From: Bacteroides clarus YIT 12056 | GTDB taxonomy: Bacteria; Bacteroidota; Bacteroidia; Bacteroidales; Bacteroidaceae | Length of the DNA stretch: 64,000 nt | Assembly: GCF_900129655.1 (NCBI RefSeq) | Contig: NZ_FQWK01000009.1 | Location: forward strand, 1 to 64,000 | Reading direction: 5' to 3' | In this document: positions 46,451 to 56,367 of the stretch, one piece after another | How the letters are laid out: every line of letters starts with the position of its first letter | Numbering within the stretch: the stretch's first letter is position 1 | Program-made: the position numbers and the translations under genes | Notes under the pieces: model-generated | Told to the model about the DNA's origin: nothing | The model's database searches: none | Seen by the model: the letters and a program-made list of their open reading frames with translations, nothing else

Positions 46451-46682
46451 TTTTAATTCTTTTTTAGTTATTCTTTTTTCCGTTGCCGGGTGGAGCCACC
46501 GTACGCCTTTTCGTTTTAGAAGGCTCATTCCCAAAATGAAAGGGAGAGTTTCTTTTTCTGTTCTCTTGCAATGCCCCCGAGGATGCATTGTAAGGCGATT
46601 TACTACTTTTCCGTAGCCTTATGTAGCCCCCCTTCACTTATAAAAGTTCAAAAGACATGCCGTTCGTTTCCCGGAAAACATT

Positions 46683-46690
46683 TATATTTG
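46683..46690 (+). promoter_or_regulatory. -7 promoter element of the NtrC-type regulator gene
   Basis: TATATTTG matches TAnnTTTG exactly, 48 bases before the start codon at 46739. The -33 position holds only a partial match. Confidence 0.6.
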
Positions 46691-46738: not shown

Positions 46739-48082
46739 ATGAGCAAGATTTTAGTCGTTGACGATGAAGTACAGATTCGTACCCTTCTGTCGCGTATGTT
46801 GGAGTTGGAAGGATATGAAGTATGTCAGGCCGGTGATTGCAGGACTGCTTTGAAGCAGTTGGAATTTCAGAGTCCGGATGTGGCCTTGTGCGATGTATTC
46901 CTTCCAGACGGTAATGGGGTAGACCTTGTGTCGTCTATCAAGAAAACGGCCCCTAACGTCGAGATAATCCTATTGACGGCGCATGGCAATATCCCGGACG
47001 GGGTACAGGCCATTAAGAACGGCGCTTTCGATTATATCACCAAAGGTGATGATAACAATAAGATTATACCGCTTGTCAGCCGCGCCGTGGAAAAGGCGCG
47101 CATGAACGTCCGTTTGGAGAAACTGGAAAAGAAAGTAGGGCAGACGTATTCTTTCGATTCTGTTTTGGGTGATTCGAAAGCATTGAAAGATGCCGTTTCA
47201 CTGGCACGGAAAGTCTCGGGAACGGACGTGCCTGTATTGCTGACGGGCGAAACGGGTACGGGAAAGGAAGTCTTTGCGCAAGCCATACATTATAATAGTA
47301 AGCGTGCCGGGCAGAATTTTGTGGCGGTCAACTGCTCTTCTTTCAGTAAAGAGCTGCTGGAAAGCGAGATGTTCGGTCATAAGGCCGGTTCGTTTACAGG
47401 CGCATTGAAAGACAAGAAAGGATTGTTTGAAGAGGCCAGCAATGGTACAATCTTTCTGGATGAAATCGGTGAAATGGCATTTGAACTGCAAGCCAAGCTT
47501 CTGCGTATTCTCGAAACGGGTGAATATATAAAGATTGGCGATACCAAACCTACCCGCGTGAATGTGCGTATCATTGCCGCAACCAACCGTAATCTGCCGG
47601 AAGAGATTGCCGCAGGACGTTTCCGCGAAGATTTATTCTACCGGCTTTCCGTATTCCAAATACATCTGCCGCCGTTACGCGAACGGGCGGGCGATGTGCG
47701 TCTTTTGGCAAAAGCCTTTGTGAAGAACTTCTCCGCCCGGTTGGCGCGTCCCGTTACGGATATTACGCCCGCCTTTCTCGAAGCTCTCGAGCAACAACCC
47801 TGGAAAGGCAATATCCGTGAACTGCGTAATGTGATAGAGCGCAGTCTGATTGTTAGCGAAGGTGAACGGCTGGACGTGGCCGACTTGCCGCTCGATATAC
47901 AGAACGCACATTACGAACAATCCGATGAAACCAGTCCCGACAGTTTTGAACTTTCGGCTATGGAGCGTCGTCACATCGCCCGTGTACTGGAATATACGAA
48001 AGGTAATAAGACCGAAGCCGCCCGTCTGCTCAAAATCGGACTGACCACCCTCTACCGTAAAATCGAAGAGTACGGAATATAA
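46739..48082 (+). CDS. NtrC-type sigma-54-dependent response regulator
   Basis: Transcription activator of 447 residues. Receiver domain (1-120) with phosphoacceptor D52 and acidic VVDDE; AAA+ domain (about 140-375) with Walker A GETGTGKE (170-177), the sigma-54 contact loop as GSFTGA (217-222, Ala to Ser variant of GAFTGA) and Walker B IFLDEI; Fis-type helix-turn-helix at the C-terminus (TEAARLLKIGLTTLYRKI). It precedes the kdp genes, where most bacteria have the OmpR-type KdpE, and a sigma-54 promoter lies downstream at 48370-48387. The probable partner kinase is encoded at 54928-56367. Confidence 0.95.
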   Translation: MSKILVVDDEVQIRTLLSRMLELEGYEVCQAGDCRTALKQLEFQSPDVALCDVFLPDGNGVDLVSSIKKTAPNVEIILLTAHGNIPDGVQAIKNGAFDYITKGDDNNKIIPLVSRAVEKARMNVRLEKLEKKVGQTYSFDSVLGDSKALKDAVSLARKVSGTDVPVLLTGETGTGKEVFAQAIHYNSKRAGQNFVAVNCSSFSKELLESEMFGHKAGSFTGALKDKKGLFEEASNGTIFLDEIGEMAFELQAKLLRILETGEYIKIGDTKPTRVNVRIIAATNRNLPEEIAAGRFREDLFYRLSVFQIHLPPLRERAGDVRLLAKAFVKNFSARLARPVTDITPAFLEALEQQPWKGNIRELRNVIERSLIVSEGERLDVADLPLDIQNAHYEQSDETSPDSFELSAMERRHIARVLEYTKGNKTEAARLLKIGLTTLYRKIEEYGI

Positions 48083-48110
48083 TCTGTTCCTTTCCCATAG
48101 CTTACCGAAA

Positions 48111-48225
48111 GTTCCCCGGCATGGAACAAAGTGTTCCGCAGCGGGAAACAAAGTGTTCCATGCCGTGAAACACTCCGTTTCACACCGGGGAACTCTCGTT
48201 CCCAACCCTTGGAACAAATGGTTCC
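48111..48225. repeat. Cluster of nested palindromes (GTTCC/GGAAC family)
   Basis: Nested and tandem inverted repeats: GTTCCCCGG (48111-48119) with CCGGGGAAC (48185-48193); GGCATGGAACA (48118-48128) with TGTTCCATGCC (48154-48164); GGAACA/TGTTCC (48123-48137); GTGAAAC/GTTTCAC (48165-48183); GGAAC/GTTCC (48211-48225). It lies between the regulator stop codon and its terminator, and about 145-260 bases upstream of the sigma-54 promoter. Confidence 0.65.
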
Positions 48226-48273
48226 GCCGGATGAACCCCGAATCATGCAGTATTCCTTTTCTATTTTGATAAG

Positions 48274-48308
48274 CACCCTTTCATTTTGGAAGGGTGTTTT
48301 CTTTTTTT
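48274..48308 (+). terminator. Intrinsic terminator of the regulator gene
   Basis: CACCCTT (48274-48280) pairs with AAGGGTG (48290-48296), followed by TTTTCTTTTTTT. It separates the regulator transcript from the kdp operon. Confidence 0.8.
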
Positions 48309-48369
48309 GTGAGTCCCTGTTTTGCTTTATTCCTTTAGAAATCAAAATCTTATCTTTTTAGCTTCTCTT

Positions 48370-48387
48370 TTGGCACGCATTTGGCGA
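48370..48387 (+). promoter_or_regulatory. Sigma-54 (-24/-12) promoter of the kdp operon
   Basis: TTGGCACG-CATT-TGGCGA has the invariant GG (48372-48373) and GC (48384-48385) separated by exactly 10 bases. The -24 half matches TTGGCACG fully and the -12 half differs by one base from TTGC. The first small gene starts 47 bases downstream, and the activator gene just upstream is of the NtrC class, so context agrees. Confidence 0.8.
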
Positions 48388-48433
48388 TTATGAGGGCGGT
48401 AAAACATGAATATTAATTTAACAAAGTAAAAAC

Positions 48434-48529
48434 ATGGGAGTAACGATTTCATTTATTTTCTGCCTGTTAAGCGGGTTTCTCGCTTTCTGGCTATTCTGGA
48501 AATGTGTGGATTGGTTTGAGAAGATTTAA
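48434..48529 (+). CDS. 31-residue membrane protein at the head of the kdp operon
   Basis: A very short gene encoding one hydrophobic helix (about residues 4-22, VTISFIFCLLSGFLAFWLF) with a charged end KCVDWFEKI. It lies between the sigma-54 promoter and kdpF, 17 bases before the latter, in the same direction. A GAGGAGAG purine run follows the stop and precedes kdpF. I do not recognise it as a named Kdp subunit. By size and position it could be an extra small subunit or regulator of KdpFABC (inference). Confidence 0.65.
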   Translation: MGVTISFIFCLLSGFLAFWLFWKCVDWFEKI

Positions 48530-48546: not shown

Positions 48547-48627
48547 ATGTACACAGTATTATTTGTATTAGGTGTTGCAGTGTTCGGGTACCTGATGTAT
48601 GTTCTGGTGAGACCCGAAAAGTTCTAA
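48547..48627 (+). CDS. kdpF: Potassium-transporting ATPase subunit KdpF
   Basis: A 26-residue single-helix peptide: MYTVLFVLGVAVFGYLMYVL followed by VRPEKF. The ending RPEKF and the YLMY core are characteristic of KdpF, which stabilises the KdpABC complex in the inner membrane. It is 12 bases upstream of kdpA. Confidence 0.88.
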   Translation: MYTVLFVLGVAVFGYLMYVLVRPEKF

Positions 48628-48639
48628 AAGATTAAAGAA

Positions 48640-50346
48640 ATGAATACGGAAATTTTAGGTGTAGTTTTACAGATTTTCCTGTTGGTGGTGATTTCTTATC
48701 CACTGGGAAAGTATATTGCAAAGGTTTATAAAGGAGAGAAGACATGGTCGGACTTTATGAAACCGGTAGAGAGATTGATATTTAAGGCAGTGGGGATTAA
48801 TCCCGATGAAGAAATGAACTGGAAGCAGTTCCTCAAGGCATTGTTGATATTGAATGCGTTCTGGTTTGTTTGGGGAATGGTGCTGTTGGTCAGTCAAGGG
48901 TGGCTGCCGTTGAATCCTGACGGTAATGGCCCGCAAACTCCCGACCAGGCATTCAATACCTGCATCAGCTTTATGGTAAACTGCAACTTGCAGCATTATT
49001 CCGGTGAGAGCGGACTGACGTATTTCACTCAGTTGTTCGTCATCACGCTCTTCCAGTTTATTACCGCAGCGACAGGTATGGCGGCTATGGCGGGTATTAT
49101 GAAGTCCATCAGCCGTAAAACAACGAGTACAATCGGTAACTTCTGGAACTTTCTTGTATTGAGTTGCACGCGTATTCTGTTGCCGCTTTCCCTGATAGTC
49201 GGCTTTATCCTTATTACGCAAGGCACTCCGATGGGCTTTGACGGTAAGATGGAAGTGACTACGCTCGAAGGACAAGAACAAATCGTTTCACAAGGTCCTG
49301 TGGCGGCCATCGTTCCTATCAAGCAGTTGGGTACGAACGGCGGCGGTTACTTCGGCGTAAATTCCTCCCATCCGTTGGAAAATCCTACCTACTTGTCCAA
49401 TATCGCCGAGTGCTGGTCTATCCTGATTATACCTATGGCTATGGTTTTTGCGTTGGGCTTCTATACAAAACGCATGAAACTGGCTTATAGTATTTACGGC
49501 GTAATGCTCTGCGCTTATCTGGCGGGTGTCGGTATCAATGTCTATCAGGAGATGAACGGTAATCCGCGCATCGATGATATGGGCATCGCACAGGACAATG
49601 GAGCGATGGAAGGCAAGGAAATCCGTTTGGGAGCGGGCGCCACTGCATTGTGGAGCATTACGACCACGGTTACTTCCAACGGTTCCGTCAATGGTATGCA
49701 CGACTCCACGATGCCGTTGTCCGGTATGATGGAGATGCTGAACATGCAGATAAACACTTGGTTCGGCGGTGTCGGAGTAGGGTGGATGAACTATTATACG
49801 TTTATTATTATCGCGGTCTTTATCAGCGGACTGATGGTGGGACGTACACCGGAATTCTTAGGAAAGAAGGTGGAAGCCCGGGAGATGAAAATAGCGACAA
49901 TCGTCGCGTTGCTTCATCCGTTTGTGATATTGGTGGGTACGGCTTTGTCCTGCTATCTCTTTGCGCATCATCCGGGGTTTGTGGAGAGTGAGGGCGGTTG
50001 GCTGAATAATCCCGGTTTCCACGGACTGAGCGAGCAGTTCTATGAGTTTACCTCGTGCGCTGCCAACAACGGTTCCGGTTTCGAAGGTTTGGGCGACAAC
50101 ACTTATTTTTGGAACTATGCCTGCGGATGGGTACTTATTCTGAGCCGTTTTCTTCCTATTGTGGGACAGGTCGCCATTGCAGGTCTACTGGCGCAGAAGA
50201 GGTTTGTGCCCGAAAGCGCCGGTACGCTGAAAACCGATACGTTTACCTTTGCCGTAATGACTTTTGCCGTAATCTTTATCGTGGCAGCGCTGTCTTTCTT
50301 CCCGGCACATGCGTTGAGTACCATTGCCGAACACTTCAGTTTGTAA
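48640..50346 (+). CDS. kdpA: Potassium-transporting ATPase subunit KdpA
   Basis: Inner-membrane K+ channel-like subunit of the high-affinity Kdp ATPase, 568 residues, about ten helices. Selectivity-filter-like loops are visible as NCNLQHYSGE, GTNGGGYFGVNSSHPLENP and SCAANNGSGFEGLGDNT. Length is normal. It is part of the operon from the sigma-54 promoter at 48370 through kdpB and kdpC, with 20 bases to kdpB. It takes up potassium when external levels are low. Confidence 0.97.
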   Translation: MNTEILGVVLQIFLLVVISYPLGKYIAKVYKGEKTWSDFMKPVERLIFKAVGINPDEEMNWKQFLKALLILNAFWFVWGMVLLVSQGWLPLNPDGNGPQTPDQAFNTCISFMVNCNLQHYSGESGLTYFTQLFVITLFQFITAATGMAAMAGIMKSISRKTTSTIGNFWNFLVLSCTRILLPLSLIVGFILITQGTPMGFDGKMEVTTLEGQEQIVSQGPVAAIVPIKQLGTNGGGYFGVNSSHPLENPTYLSNIAECWSILIIPMAMVFALGFYTKRMKLAYSIYGVMLCAYLAGVGINVYQEMNGNPRIDDMGIAQDNGAMEGKEIRLGAGATALWSITTTVTSNGSVNGMHDSTMPLSGMMEMLNMQINTWFGGVGVGWMNYYTFIIIAVFISGLMVGRTPEFLGKKVEAREMKIATIVALLHPFVILVGTALSCYLFAHHPGFVESEGGWLNNPGFHGLSEQFYEFTSCAANNGSGFEGLGDNTYFWNYACGWVLILSRFLPIVGQVAIAGLLAQKRFVPESAGTLKTDTFTFAVMTFAVIFIVAALSFFPAHALSTIAEHFSL

Positions 50347-50366: not shown

Positions 50367-52421
50367 ATGTTTATGAAAGATAAAAAATCAGCTTCTTTGT
50401 TTCAGAAGGAGCAAGTAATGGAAAGTTTGAAACAGTCATTCGTGAAGTTGAATCCGCGGGTGATGATAAAGAACCCGATAATGTTCACCGTGGAGCTGGT
50501 GACACTGGTGATGCTGGTGGTCTGCATCCTCTCTTTGGGAACATCGGAATATGGGACGTTCGGCTATAACTTCTTGGTGTTTGTGATATTGTTTGTAACT
50601 TTATTGTTTGCCAACTTTGCCGAGGCCATTGCCGAAGCCCGTGGCAAGGCACAGGCGGACAGCCTGCGTAAGACGCGTGAGGAAACTCCCGCCAAGGTCT
50701 TGGTGGAAGGTAAGTTGCGTACCGTCAGCAGCGCGCGTCTCAAAAAGGGAGATTTCTTTATTTGCGAAGCCGGCGATACGATTCCTGCCGATGGAGAGAT
50801 TGTGGAAGGGTTGGCTTCTATTGACGAGAGCGCCATTACCGGTGAGTCCGCTCCGGTAATCCGTGAGGCGGGCGGTGATAAAAGCTCCGTCACCGGCGGC
50901 ACAAAGGTTCTGTCGGATAAGATAAAGGTGTTGGTTACGCAGCAACAGGGCGAGAGTTTCCTCGACAAGATGATTGCGCTGGTAGAGGGCGCCACCCGTA
51001 AGAAAACACCGAACGAAATAGCGCTGACTATCTTATTGGCCGGTTTTACGTTAGTGTTCGTAATCGTATGTATTACGTTGATTCCGATGGCGGACTATAC
51101 CGCTATCGACCATCCGGGTACGTATATCTCCATTGCGGCCATACTCTCATTATTTGTCTGCCTGATACCGACAACCATCGGCGGTCTGCTTTCGGCCATC
51201 GGTATTGCCGGTATGGATCGTGCCCTGCGTGCCAATGTGATTACAAAGTCGGGTAAAGCCGTTGAGACTGCCGGTGACATTGATACGTTGCTGCTGGACA
51301 AGACCGGTACAATCACTATCGGTAATCGTAAGGCTACCAAGTTCCACCCGGCTCCGGGCATTGATGAAAAGGTGTTTGTGGAGGCCTGCCTGCTGTCCTC
51401 GCTCTCCGATGAAACCCCGGAAGGGAAATCCATCATCGAGCTGGGACGTGAGAACGGACATCGTATGCGCGACCTCAACACAGCGGGCGCTCACATGATT
51501 AAGTTTACAGCCGAAACCAAATGCTCCGGTGTCGACCTGCAAGACGGTACTCAAATACGTAAAGGCGCGTTCGACGCGATTCGTCGGATTGTGGAAAGTG
51601 CGGGGAATAAGTTCCCGAAGGAAGTAGAAGGAGCGATTGCCGCCATTTCGGGCAACGGCGGTACTCCGCTGGTGGTATGTGTCAATAAAGCGGTGTTGGG
51701 AGTCATTGAATTGCAGGACATCATCAAGCCGGGTATTCAGGAGCGCTTTGAGCGTCTTCGCAAAATGGGGGTGAAGACGGTGATGGTAACCGGTGACAAC
51801 CCGTTGACCGCCAAATACATTGCCGAAAAAGCCGGTGTGGATGATTTCATCGCCGAAGCAAAGCCGGAGGATAAAATGGAATATATCAGGAAAGAGCAGC
51901 AGGCCGGCAAACTGGTTGCCATGATGGGAGACGGAACCAATGACGCCCCCGCGCTGGCGCAGGCAAATGTGGGTGTCGCCATGAATAGCGGTACGCAGGC
52001 TGCAAAGGAAGCCGGTAATATGGTAGACCTTGACAACGACCCGACCAAGCTGATTGAAATTGTAGAGATAGGCAAGCAGTTGCTGATGACACGCGGCACG
52101 CTCACCACGTTCTCCATCGCGAATGATGTGGCCAAATACTTTGCCATTATTCCCGCGCTGTTCATGGCGGCCATTCCTCAGTTGGCTCCGTTGAATATCA
52201 TGGGGTTGCATAGCCCTGAGACGGCCATTCTTTCGGCTATCATCTTTAATGCCGTCATCATCCCCATACTGATACCGTTGGCATTGAAGGGCGTCCGGTA
52301 CAAACCGATCGGCGCAAGCGCGCTACTTCGCCGCAACTTGCTGATTTATGGTTTGGGCGGTGTCATAGCGCCGTTCATAGGTATCAAGTTAATAGATATG
52401 TTTGTCAGTTTGTTTTTTTAA
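50367..52421 (+). CDS. kdpB: Potassium-transporting ATPase subunit KdpB
   Basis: P-type ATPase catalytic subunit, 684 residues. Key motifs: TGES (158-161), phosphorylated Asp311 in [18 protein letters not shown] and [12 protein letters not shown] of the P and N domains; hydrophobic helices at about 38-85, 222-285 and 585-680. It hydrolyses ATP to drive K+ entry through KdpA. An in-frame internal ATG at codon 3 is an alternative start. KdpC follows 17 bases downstream. Confidence 0.97.
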
Positions 52422-52438: not shown

Positions 52439-53014
52439 ATGAAAACTCTTTGGAAATCAGTTAAAATAACCATTGCTTTCTGCGTATTCTTTTCCGTGTT
52501 CTATATCCTTGTCTTATGGATATTCGCGCAATTTGCAGGACCGAATAAAGGTAATGCCGAGGTCTTGACCCTGAACGGCAAGGTAGTGGGCGCCGCCAAT
52601 GTGGGGCAGATGTTTACGGAAGACACTTTTTTCTGGGGACGGCCTTCCTGTGCCGGTGACGGTTACGACGCGAGCAGTTCGGCGGGTAGTAACAAAGGTC
52701 CTACAAACGAAGAATACCTTGCGGAGGTGGAAGCGCGCATAGATACATTCTTGCTGCATCATCCTTATTTGCAACGCAAAGAGGTTCCCGCCGAAATGGT
52801 AACGGCCAGCGCTTCGGGTCTTGACCCTGACATTACGCCTGCCAGCGCTTATGTACAGGTAAAGCGTGTGGCTGAGGCGAGGGGACTGGATGAGGCTACT
52901 GTCCGGAGCATCGTTGACAAGGCTGTTGAAAAACCGTTGCTGGGGTTGTTCGGTACGGCGAAAGTGAATGTGTTGAAGTTGAATATCGCATTGGAAGAAA
53001 CAAATGGAAAATAA
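52439..53014 (+). CDS. kdpC: Potassium-transporting ATPase subunit KdpC
   Basis: Small periplasm-facing subunit of the Kdp ATPase, 191 residues, with one N-terminal helix (about 10-32). Family motifs are FWGRPSCAGDGYDASSSAGSN near 60-85, TASASGLDPDITPASAYVQ near 120-140 and a C-terminal GTAKVNVLKLN. It helps the complex bind ATP or K+. The next gene overlaps its end by 11 bases or starts 7 bases later, depending on the start used. Confidence 0.96.
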   Translation: MKTLWKSVKITIAFCVFFSVFYILVLWIFAQFAGPNKGNAEVLTLNGKVVGAANVGQMFTEDTFFWGRPSCAGDGYDASSSAGSNKGPTNEEYLAEVEARIDTFLLHHPYLQRKEVPAEMVTASASGLDPDITPASAYVQVKRVAEARGLDEATVRSIVDKAVEKPLLGLFGTAKVNVLKLNIALEETNGK

Positions 53015-53786
53015 GAAAATAATGAAAGATATGAATAGGATAAGAGTAACAGTAATAGGTTTTATCGCCGTTTTGGCGGCAAGTGTTATGGGAGTGGACA
53101 AGGTACAGGCGCAGGAGTTTAAGATACAGGGTGATTTAGTCAGTTCCTATGTGTGGCGCGGCTTTTATCAAACCGGGGTTAGCTTCCAGCCGACTTTAGG
53201 ATTTGGGATAGGTGGCTTTTCGTTGACGGCATGGGGCTCTACCGATTTTGACGGAACAAGCTCCTCGGATGGTGAGGCTGCAAAAGAAATAGATTTGACG
53301 GCAGCTTATACGTTCGGCGATTCCGGTTTGACCTTGTCCGTTGCCAGTCTTTGGTGGGCAGGTCAGGGAAGCAATAAGTACTTTAACTTCAAAAGCCATG
53401 AGACGGCTCATCATTTTGAGGCGGGGCTTGCCTATACGCTGCCGTTGGAGAAGTTTCCGCTGTCAATAGCCTGGTACACGATGTTTGCCGGCGCGGATAA
53501 GAATGAGAAGGGAGAACAGAATTATTCTTCTTATGTAGAGTTGAACTATCCGTTCAGCATCAAGTCCGTCGATTTGAATGCCACTTGCGGTTTTCTGCCT
53601 TATGAAGCCGGCTCGGGTGTTTACGGAGTTCCAAACAGCGGCTTTGCCGTAACCAATCTGGCGCTGAAAGCCACGAAAGACATCAAGGTAACGGATAGGT
53701 TCGCTATACCGGTATTTGCGCAGGCTATTTGGAATCCCCGTATGGAAGATGCGCACCTGGTGTTCGGTATAACTCTGAAGCCATGA
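53004..53786 (+). CDS. Outer-membrane barrel protein in the kdp operon
   Basis: Exported protein of 260 residues (254 if the in-frame ATG at 53022 is used). A hydrophobic signal (VTVIGFIAVLAASVMG) ends near VQA-QEF. The mature part begins FKIQGDLVSSYVWRGFYQTG and continues as alternating beta strands with Gly and aromatic residues (FGIGGFSLTAWGSTDF, LTLSVASLWWAGQGSNKYF), ending LVFGITLKP. This resembles TorF/DUF-type outer-membrane porins. It sits between kdpC and the kdpD-like gene and overlaps the latter by 4 bases (ATGA), so it is translated with the system and may admit K+ through the outer membrane (inference). Confidence 0.8.
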   Translation: MENKKIMKDMNRIRVTVIGFIAVLAASVMGVDKVQAQEFKIQGDLVSSYVWRGFYQTGVSFQPTLGFGIGGFSLTAWGSTDFDGTSSSDGEAAKEIDLTAAYTFGDSGLTLSVASLWWAGQGSNKYFNFKSHETAHHFEAGLAYTLPLEKFPLSIAWYTMFAGADKNEKGEQNYSSYVELNYPFSIKSVDLNATCGFLPYEAGSGVYGVPNSGFAVTNLALKATKDIKVTDRFAIPVFAQAIWNPRMEDAHLVFGITLKP

Positions 53787-54907
53787 GCAGGGAAGAGAGC
53801 GTACAACATTTCCTCGACCTGATTAAGAAATCACGTCGCGGTAAGTTTAAGGTCTACATCGGCATGATTGCCGGTGTAGGCAAAACTTATCGTATGCTTC
53901 AGGAAGCCCATGACTTGCTGGATAATGGGGTAGACGTGAATATCGGCTATGTGGAGACGCATGGACGCGCCGGTACGGAGGCGGTGTTGGCCGGACTGCC
54001 CGTAATTCCCCGGCGTAAGATATTCTATAAGGGCAAGGAACTCGAGGAAATGGACCTTGACGCCATCATCCGTATCCATCCGGAAATCGTCGTTGTGGAC
54101 GAGCTGGCGCATACCAATGTAGAAGGCAGCCGGAATGAGAAGCGTTGGCAGGATGTAATGGATTTGCTGGATGAGGGTATCAATGTCATATCCGCCGTCA
54201 ACATACAGCACATTGAGAGTATTAATGAAGAAGTGCAAGGTATTTCCGGTATCGAGGTAAAGGAGCGCATTCCCGACAGTGTGCTGGAAGAAGCGGATGA
54301 AGTGGTGAATATCGACCTGACGGCGGAAGAACTGATAACCCGCCTGAAAGCCGGCAAGATATACAAGCCGGATAAAGTAGCCCTTGCGTTGAACAACTTC
54401 TTCAAGACGGAAAATATTCTGCAACTGCGTGAGCTGGCTCTGAAAGAAGTGGCGTTAAGGGTGGAGAAGAAAGTGGAGAATGAAGTGGTGGTTTCCAGTG
54501 TCGGTGTGCGGCATGAGAAGTTCATGGCGTGTATCAGCAGCCATGAAAAGACGCCGCGCCGTATTATCCGTAAGGCGGCGCGGCTGGCAACCCGTTATAA
54601 TACATCATTCGTGGCTCTCTATGTACAGACTCCCCGGGAGAGCGCCGACCGCATCGCGCTTGCGAATCAGCGGCATCTGCTGAATCATTTCAAACTGGTG
54701 ACCGAATTGGGCGGAGAGGTTATGCAGGTGCAGTCCAAAGACGTGCCGGGCAGTATCGTTACGGCTTGCAGAGAGAAACAGATAACGACCGTTTGTATGG
54801 GCAGTCCCTCGTTCGCTTTGCCGCAATCTTTGTTTATGGTGCTGAGATATAGAAAATTTGTGAGCGAACTGGCGCAAGCAAACATAGATTTGATTATACT
54901 TGCATAA
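53783..54907 (+). CDS. kdpD: Stand-alone KdpD N-terminal sensor domain plus USP domain
   Basis: Cytoplasmic protein of 374 residues equal to the N-terminal part of KdpD only. The start at 53783 overlaps the previous stop as ATGA and begins MSREESVQHF. The KdpD domain (about 20-230) has Walker A GMIAGVGKT (27-35) and Walker B IVVVDELAHTN; a universal-stress-like domain (about 245-374) follows with VCMGSPSFALPQSLF. The membrane helices, GAF and kinase domains of full KdpD are absent; a separate kinase is encoded 20 bases downstream. It presumably reports potassium or ATP status to that kinase or directly to the regulator at 46739 (inference). Confidence 0.9.
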   Translation: MSREESVQHFLDLIKKSRRGKFKVYIGMIAGVGKTYRMLQEAHDLLDNGVDVNIGYVETHGRAGTEAVLAGLPVIPRRKIFYKGKELEEMDLDAIIRIHPEIVVVDELAHTNVEGSRNEKRWQDVMDLLDEGINVISAVNIQHIESINEEVQGISGIEVKERIPDSVLEEADEVVNIDLTAEELITRLKAGKIYKPDKVALALNNFFKTENILQLRELALKEVALRVEKKVENEVVVSSVGVRHEKFMACISSHEKTPRRIIRKAARLATRYNTSFVALYVQTPRESADRIALANQRHLLNHFKLVTELGGEVMQVQSKDVPGSIVTACREKQITTVCMGSPSFALPQSLFMVLRYRKFVSELAQANIDLIILA

Positions 54908-54927
54908 AATTTAATTCCTTGAGCGTT

Positions 54928-56367
54928 ATGAACATTCGTACTAAATTGATACTCAGTGTAGGCATTCTCGCAGGTATGATAATCCTGCTGGTAGCCCTCT
55001 CGGTTGTGAATCTCCAGATACTGACGGCTACGGAGCCGGATAGCCCTGCCGCCATGCCCGGCTTGCAGCGCGCCTTGCTGTGGATTTCCGTAACGGGCGG
55101 CATTTGCATTCTTGCCAGTATCGTGCTGCTGGTATGGTTGCCCCGTTCCATAAATAAACCTATCAGGGAACTGACGCAAGGCATCCTCGAAATAGCCAAC
55201 CATAACTATGAAAAGCGCCTTGATATGAGCGAGCACGAAGAATTTCGCGAAGTGGCCGATAGCTTTAACAGCATGGCGGAACGCCTCACGGAATATCGTA
55301 CCAGTACGCTGAATGATATTTTATCTGCCAAAAAGTTCCTGGAAGCCATTGTAAACAGCATCCATGAGCCTATTATCGGCTTAAACCGCGGGCACGAAAT
55401 CCTTTTCATCAATAAAGAGGCGTTGACCGTACTGAATCTGAAACGTGAAGATGTCATACGCCGTTCTGCCGAGGAACTGTCGCTGAAAAACGACCTGCTC
55501 CGGCGGCTGGTGAGGGAATTAATCAATCCGGGCGAGAAGAAAGAGCCTTTGAAGATTTATGCGGATAATAAGGAAAGCTATTTTCAGGCATCCTATATTA
55601 CCATTATGAATACGGATGCCGATACGGATGAATCCCATAATCTGGGCGATGTTATTCTGTTGAAGAATATCACCGAATTTAAAGAGCTGGATACGGCGAA
55701 AACAACCTTTATCTCTACGATTTCGCATGAGCTGAAAACCCCTATCTCCGCCATCCTTATGAGTCTGCAGCTTTTGGAAGACAATCGTGTGGGCGCCTTG
55801 AACGAGGAACAGGAACAACTTTCAAAGAGCATCAGGGAGAACGCCGACCGCCTGCTGGGTATTACGGGCGAGCTTCTTAACATGACGCAAGTGGAAGCCG
55901 GCAAGTTGCAGATGATACCGAAGATAACGAAGCCTATCGAACTGATAGAGTATGCTATCAAGGCGAATCAGGTACAGGCTGATAAGTTCAATATCCAGAT
56001 TGAGGTGGAATATCCGGAAGAGAAGATGCCGAAGCTGTTTGTGGATAGCGAGAAGATAGCATGGGTGCTCACTAACTTATTGAGCAATGCCATTCGTTAT
56101 TCCAAAGAAAACGGCCGCGTCGTTATCGGTGCAAAGCAGGAAGATAATTTTGTGGAGCTCTATGTGCAGGACTTCGGCAAAGGTATCGACCCGCGTTATC
56201 ACCAAAGTATCTTCGACCGCTACTTCCGCGTACCCGGTACGAAAGTGCAGGGAAGCGGTTTGGGGCTTTCCATATCCAAAGATTTTGTAGAGGCTCATGG
56301 AGGCACGCTGACTGTCCGGAGCGAGTTGGGAAAAGGCAGCCGTTTCGTTATTCGGCTGAAAGCGTAG
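54928..56367 (+). CDS. Sensor histidine kinase of the kdp region
   Basis: Inner-membrane kinase of 479 residues from the ATG at 54928 (an in-frame TTG three codons upstream is less likely). Two helices (about 7-29 and 50-71) flank a short periplasmic loop; a HAMP domain (about 72-125), a PAS domain (about 135-245), the HisKA domain with phospho-His267 in FISTISHELKTP and a HATPase domain with LLSNAIRYS, DFGKGID and GSGLGLSIS follow. It probably phosphorylates the NtrC-type regulator at 46739. It lacks KdpD's four-helix region, so it is not merely the second half of a frameshifted KdpD. It ends 18 bases from the converging AraC gene. Confidence 0.93.
   Translation: MNIRTKLILSVGILAGMIILLVALSVVNLQILTATEPDSPAAMPGLQRALLWISVTGGICILASIVLLVWLPRSINKPIRELTQGILEIANHNYEKRLDMSEHEEFREVADSFNSMAERLTEYRTSTLNDILSAKKFLEAIVNSIHEPIIGLNRGHEILFINKEALTVLNLKREDVIRRSAEELSLKNDLLRRLVRELINPGEKKEPLKIYADNKESYFQASYITIMNTDADTDESHNLGDVILLKNITEFKELDTAKTTFISTISHELKTPISAILMSLQLLEDNRVGALNEEQEQLSKSIRENADRLLGITGELLNMTQVEAGKLQMIPKITKPIELIEYAIKANQVQADKFNIQIEVEYPEEKMPKLFVDSEKIAWVLTNLLSNAIRYSKENGRVVIGAKQEDNFVELYVQDFGKGIDPRYHQSIFDRYFRVPGTKVQGSGLGLSISKDFVEAHGGTLTVRSELGKGSRFVIRLKA

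Follow-up and report, generated by a model that had tools for sequence, protein, structure and literature searches.

Control of kdp in described systems

In E. coli, the Kdp pump operon is under two-component control by KdpD and KdpE, and KdpE is an OmpR-type factor that works with the main sigma factor. NtrC follows a different architecture at glnAp2, where tandem dyads ~110 to 130 nt upstream of the start allow looping to a -24/-12 promoter.

The closest described system for kdp itself is that of D. vulgaris. According to the available text of PMC3333781, DVU3334 is a sigma-54 response regulator of kdpFABC, and the sensor is split, with KdpD and UspA in one ORF and the kinase in another; in a table row of PMC4641369, DVU3334 is a GAFTGA response regulator assigned to potassium uptake. 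On these descriptions D. vulgaris is a precedent, and sigma-54/NtrC-type control of kdp is not confined to Bacteroides. The accessible part of PMC11018627 describes the short KdpD as the predominant form in Bacteroidota. It adds that diadenylate cyclases are mostly present in phyla whose KdpD is mainly short, Bacteroidota included, and suggests c-di-AMP control; neither "NtrC" nor "non-kinase" occurs in its main text. A search by title and start of abstract in the open subset of PubMed Central found no report of sigma-54 control of kdp in Bacteroidota, and sigma-54 in Bacteroides is little covered in the open-access papers searched. The main texts of a sigma-54 regulon paper (PMC12316311) and of a Geobacter RpoN paper (PMC2725144) do not mention kdp, and the main text of a paper on B. 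thetaiotaomicron start sites (PMC7366714) mentions none of sigma-54, RpoN and kdp.

The kdp locus of Bacteroides clarus

The window analyzed here is a stretch of 64,000 nt from B. clarus YIT 12056. It carries the kdp operon together with regulator and sensor genes:

46739..48082, + strand: NtrC-type response regulator of 447 aa, the proposed activator (Pfam Response_reg, Sigma54_activat and HTH_8; GSFTGA; C-terminal TTLYRK helix)
48434..48529, + strand: 31-aa ORF, first in the operon, ending WFEKI, without Pfam or NCBIfam match
48547..48627, + strand: kdpF (PF09604, 34.4 bits against a cut-off of 21.2)
48640..50346, + strand: kdpA (PF03814)
50367..52421, + strand: kdpB, P-type ATPase subunit (PF00122 and PF00702, operon position)
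52439..53014, + strand: kdpC (PF02669)
53004-53786: 260-aa ORF between kdpC and KdpD, with only a sub-threshold porin family match (TIGR02001, 15.7 of 47.15 bits)
53729..54907, + strand: KdpD sensor without kinase domain (PF02702 over cut-off; the true start may be further in)
54919..56367, + strand: separate histidine kinase (Pfam HAMP, PAS, HisKA and HATPase), the proposed partner of the regulator by its position

The upstream neighbor of the operon had been taken for an NtrC-type activator gene with GSFTGA, and both the Pfam domains and the motif are indeed found in the product of 46739-48082. This protein has the full set of parts of a bacterial enhancer-binding protein: a receiver, an AAA+ sigma-54 domain with GSFTGA and the Walker A motif GETGTGKE, and a Fis-type helix-turn-helix. 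In PDB, it matches best to regulators of the NtrC family, among them 1ny5 and 4l4u, the latter aligned over nearly the whole length, and the closest NCBIfam models are AtoC and NtrC, both below cut-off. At this locus, the regulator beside kdp is NtrC-type, not OmpR-type. For the sensor, the best NCBIfam model is NF038185 KdpD_non_kinase, below cut-off (348.6 of 550 bits).

Two-component control of the pump operon is shared with E. coli KdpD/KdpE; unlike that system, B. clarus has an NtrC-type regulator, a predicted -24/-12 promoter, and a split KdpD. Tandem upstream dyads and a -24/-12 promoter are features in common with NtrC/glnAp2, from which the kdp system differs in operator, kinase, and target. 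Likened by description, the locus resembles the DVU3334 system in combining a sigma-54 response regulator with a split KdpD/kinase at kdp; however, the available account places the D. vulgaris regulator inside the kdp operon, with two further regulators binding there, whereas the B. clarus gene lies upstream and its counterparts in relatives lie upstream or elsewhere. The B. clarus KdpD domain without a kinase also resembles the short non-kinase KdpD as described in the part of PMC11018627 at hand.

A counterpart of the 31-aa ORF lies ahead of kdp at 74 of 79 loci; in other Bacteroidota groups it does so at 27 of 28, and among the 4 distant loci at none. Relatives differ in it mostly at third codon positions (607, versus 359 and 302 at the other two), and its product may be a second small pump subunit.

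The regulator is present in 14 of the 15 genomes with a kdpA at least 72% identical, the one exception (G042) being 72% complete, and in none of the 66 other genomes at E <= 1e-120 among the candidates scored (21 first-look candidates in many genomes). In one relative (G030, C1:1071738-1072019), only kdpA fragments of 81 to 84% identity are seen and the regulator is absent at threshold, which looks like a decayed kdp locus that has lost its regulator too.

A conserved -24/-12 element in front of kdp

The predicted promoter is the following:

48371..48386, + strand: sigma-54 -24/-12 promoter of kdp, TGGCACGCATTTGGCG, 15.2 bits, conserved in relatives, expected +1 ~48397

The sequence TTGGCACG occupies 48370-48377, and on inspection GG (48372-48373) is followed by ten bases (48374-48383) and GC (48384-48385), confirming the GG-N10-GC spacing originally claimed for 48370-48387; the -12 half is degenerate (TGGCG, versus TTGCA). 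With C48385 taken as -12, +1 falls at ~48397. The element had been placed 47 bases before the first gene of the kdp operon. This distance stands when counted from 48387 to the first start codon, ATG 48434, but the first ORF is the 31-aa ORF, not KdpF.

Taken in isolation, the motif is weak evidence, because loose matches (at most 3 mismatches) are at chance level in the window (239, versus 252 expected) and the -12 half is degenerate. The strict sigma-54 consensus has 16 matches in the genome and 24 for the reversed control, which is no enrichment and uninformative; the kdp site is missing among the 16 because it ends GGCG. The chance frequency of the motif alone speaks for a rival explanation, namely, that the -24/-12 match is fortuitous, that a housekeeping promoter or read-through from the regulator gene drives kdp, and that the dyad described below is only the terminator of that gene.

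What does comparison with relatives say? The best 80 of 112 named kdpA loci and the window made 81 loci, of which three (L028, L066, and L073) were dropped for short upstream DNA, leaving 78 (the window and 77 named). Scores come from one sigma-54 matrix and would shift with another; under it, the kdp site scores 15.2 bits, a value attained in 0.15% of 2000 dinucleotide-shuffled versions of the 500 nt ahead of kdpA. The original prediction had proposed a scan of kdp upstream regions in other Bacteroides for the same pair. Across the 78 loci, matches of at least 10 bits were found in 67 versus 5.0% of dinucleotide shuffles, at least 12 bits in 52 versus 1.6%, and at least 14 bits in 39 versus 0.4%. 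The promoter frequency over the 78 loci is far beyond chance, although the loci are not independent cases, since some are near-copies (e.g., L038/L039 and L059/L060/L062). Eleven of the 78 score below 10 bits, and L078 and L091 are without an acceptable match. By eye, the promoter lies mostly 250 to 420 nt ahead of kdpA. In the distant KdpA loci L017 to L020 (42 to 45% identity), the promoter reaches at most 6.7 bits and the dyad at most 13 of 21 positions, and the regulator is absent from the DNA examined.

The sigma factor itself is encoded once in the genome (one match each to PF00309 and PF04552). Its gene occurs in all 15 genomes with a kdpA at least 72% identical and in 75 of 81 genomes overall; its presence is necessary, not diagnostic, because most genomes without kdp have it too.

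A housekeeping-type element is seen before the regulator gene:

46683..46690, + strand: TAnnTTTG housekeeping-type -7 element of the regulator gene, TATATTTG, a motif match

TAnnTTTG, a consensus quoted in the accessible text of PMC7366714, occurs upstream of the regulator in 42 of 56 cases, where shuffles average 4.8, and upstream of kdp in 7 of 78, where they average 13.9. It is absent from 48083-48434, which argues against the rival of a fortuitous match. No sigma-54 promoter for the regulator gene was found on the coding strand, the best score there being 3.2 bits in the window. Since TAnnTTTG is common before the regulator and scarce before kdp, the activator looks constitutive and the pump does not.

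An upstream dyad on a spacing lattice

The original prediction included no enhancer; a dyad, ACCYTTTCAWWWTGRAAGGGT, emerged when the upstream regions were read side by side. Three elements can be placed upstream of the promoter:

48275..48295, no strand: enhancer dyad ACCCTTTCATTTTGGAAGGGT, centre 48285, ~-112, doubling as a terminator-like hairpin of the regulator gene
48259..48271, no strand: second, weaker enhancer half in tandem, TTCTATTTTGATA, located ~20 nt before the main dyad; hand count, 10 of 13 core positions
48340..48352, + strand: IHF-like site AATCAAAATCTTA, lying between the dyad and the promoter, 13 of 13 to WATCAANNNNTTR

In B. clarus, the dyad lies 86 nt upstream of the -24 element. 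At least 17 of its 21 positions are matched in 55 of 78 loci, and in 49 of these 55 the centre is 84 to 88 nt from the T of TGG. When the 13-base core is counted (at least 11 positions, in the 76 loci left after omitting L078 and L091, which lack a promoter), 70 matches fall at 85 to 88 nt, 29 at 106 to 109 nt, and 3 at 63 nt; the group at 106 to 109 nt is the relatives' counterpart of the tandem half at 48259..48271. Core matches number 1.59 per locus versus 0.08 in one shuffle of each, which, like the shuffles for the IHF-like and TAnnTTTG counts, kept base composition only, whereas the promoter shuffles kept dinucleotides. The resulting lattice positions, 63, 86, and 107 nt, are separated by about two helical turns between neighbors. 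A core match sits at a lattice position in 75 of 78 loci, for a chance estimate of ~0.6% per locus from the shuffled rate, and is absent in three (L078, L085, and L091). The promoter is thus accompanied upstream by a predicted activator site conserved on a spacing lattice. Within the genome, the only copy of the dyad with 0 or 1 mismatch is the kdp site, and the other matches listed have 3 mismatches, which is control level, although two of them make up the pair at 46506-46544 ahead of the regulator gene.

Of 76 loci, 36 have an IHF-like site of at least 11 of 13 at this one offset (shuffles gave a mean of 0.8 and a maximum of 4), with the caveat that the consensus WATCAANNNNTTR may not be what Bacteroides HU/IHF proteins read.

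Enhancer or terminator

The dyad also forms a 13-pair hairpin (48271-48299) followed by a T run, and so looks like a terminator. This structure is what the rival of a fortuitous match would lead one to see behind the regulator gene, as is the distribution of terminator-like features near the dyad, which occur in 27 of 43 regulator-adjacent loci versus 7 of 35 others (Fisher p = 2e-4). Against it, the dyad is kept, at fixed spacing to the -24 element, in 32 of the 35 loci without a regulator gene adjacent upstream, where a terminator is mostly lacking; a plain terminator as the sole role of the hairpin is rejected on account of this retention. For the 21 loci without the regulator in the upstream DNA (up to 4 kb examined), the regulator was found elsewhere in 19 of 20 genomes searched, a count that leaves out L079; in the genome of L048 it is absent at threshold. 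Because the dyad is kept in these non-adjacent loci and the regulator is encoded elsewhere in 19 of 20 genomes, we read the dyad as an enhancer on which the regulator would act in trans, and the terminator as an optional function that overlaps with it. In the B. clarus genome, the hairpin behind the activator gene would serve chiefly as an enhancer that a terminator overlaps.

Co-change of recognition helix and operator

The recognition helix of the regulators reads TTLYRK or ATLYRK. Among 106 loci tabulated for helix and dyad (16 undecided), at least one half-site carries T as the fifth base of the 19-mer in 58 of 63 TTLYRK loci versus 1 of 27 ATLYRK loci, and both half-sites do so in 41 of 63 versus none of 27; the ATLYRK loci mostly have A or C there. 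Five TTLYRK loci lack a T half-site (L036, L057, L091, L171, and L177). The automatic choice of dyad was wrong in L036, which probably explains its lack of a T half-site, and probably also in L045, L057, and L160, all of which were counted as chosen. The coupling is imperfect: L091, sister to the Alistipes group, has a T-type helix but an A-type dyad.

In a phylogeny of 88 regulators, computed after removal of the last 45 residues, the helix type changed three times, as forced by well-supported branches, with non-T dyads each time: in a Bacteroidaceae-centred subclade, in the Alistipes group, and in a group from a different class that includes L158 and L165. These three separate changes are the sounder count, since relatedness inflates Fisher p values. 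Once the pattern was known from other loci, ATLYRK was expected for L048, L050, L055, and L096, and the expectation held in the three of three that were testable. A terminator does not explain such a co-change of dyad and helix. With this and the retained, fixed-spacing dyad against it, we consider the explanation by a chance match, a housekeeping promoter or read-through, and a mere terminator to be highly improbable. Helix-operator pairs that change together also offer a natural specificity test for Fis-type activators.

Proposed mechanism and its signal

The original prediction of a kdp sigma-54 promoter under the neighboring NtrC-type activator is therefore supported by promoter conservation, the fixed-spacing dyad, activator-kdpA co-occurrence, and helix-dyad co-change. 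This is a real and well-conserved element of kdp, and very probably a sigma-54 enhancer-promoter on which the product of the adjacent regulator gene acts as activator; such strong confidence applies to the promoter-enhancer-activator core, for which promoter, enhancer, spacing, domain make-up, co-occurrence, and helix-operator co-change are shown at the level of sequence and of comparison between loci. The enhancer-promoter would be complete, with its operator defined and open to testing, and would link the K+ homeostasis of gut Bacteroidales to RpoN.

Under this model, a housekeeping-type promoter would drive the regulator gene (46739-48082), and the regulator would be phosphorylated, most likely by the histidine kinase encoded at 54919-56367. 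The phosphorylated regulator would then bind the dyad centred at 48285 and the weaker tandem site ~20 nt upstream. A DNA loop, whose formation an IHF/HU-like protein at 48340-48352 would probably assist, would bring it to the holoenzyme, and ATP hydrolysis by the regulator would open the promoter so that sigma-54 RNA polymerase transcribes kdp from 48371-48386. Dependence on RpoN in vivo, the phosphorylation partner, and the bending protein are parts of the model that we infer.

Low K+ is the probable main signal: the regulator co-occurs with kdpA and the only near-perfect site in the genome is at kdp, so that K+ need is the simplest candidate. Both observations weigh against the alternative that the sigma-54 enhancer-promoter is real but answers mainly to something other than K+ limitation, such as c-di-AMP, turgor, or iron sensed via KdpD/kinase, or that another activator of the genome acts on it. 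Points in favor of this alternative are the c-di-AMP control suggested in the accessible part of PMC11018627, which deals with short-KdpD phyla including Bacteroidota, the two further regulators that target kdp in D. vulgaris (available text of PMC3333781), and five other genes with strong Sigma54_activat matches in the genome. Moreover, BT2423 and BT2425 (KdpC and KdpA) appear as rows of an iron-stimulon table in PMC10434189, with second numbers of 0.437 and 0.147 that look like non-significant p-values. We regard the alternative as unlikely, though it deserves to be kept in mind, and retain K+ limitation acting through the neighboring regulator as the preferred reading.

A more far-reaching idea, which we put forward as speculation and think somewhat less likely still, is that kdp in Bacteroidota is an ancestral sigma-54 system in which the enhancer doubles as the terminator of the activator gene wherever the two are neighbors. 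Activator transcription across the enhancer, its termination, and activation of the pump would then be mechanically coupled, and the specificities of regulator and operator would have switched together at least three times.

Reach beyond the order

A KdpA match was found in 85 of 296 Bacteroidota genomes searched. In 28 further loci from other Bacteroidota classes (L154 to L181), the regulator lies upstream on the same strand in 24, and a dyad of at least 16 of 21 positions lies near the best match in 13; a -24/-12 match of at least 10 bits is found in only 6, not always at the expected position. Regulator and dyad thus appear to extend further than the canonical promoter, and the promoter is accordingly not claimed for the whole phylum. 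Five of these loci (L158, L165, L167, L169, and L173) have TGGCAT 95 to 97 nt from the dyad with the -12 GC absent, which is either a diverged sigma-54 promoter or something else.

Other repeats around the regulator gene

Behind the regulator gene lies an array of GGAAC...GTTCC-type dyads (48111-48225), with similar arrays at two unrelated places in the genome (G000 C8:41149, L105; C10:63066, L108). These dyads were the first candidate for activator sites and were rejected, since by eye such arrays occur in only a few close relatives among 43 upstream regions and also at L105 and L108; the array looks like a dispersed intergenic repeat. Ahead of the regulator gene, at 46506-46544, are two enhancer-like dyads 20 nt apart with 3 mismatches each. 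Similar pairs occur in several Bacteroides relatives, and autoregulation is possible.
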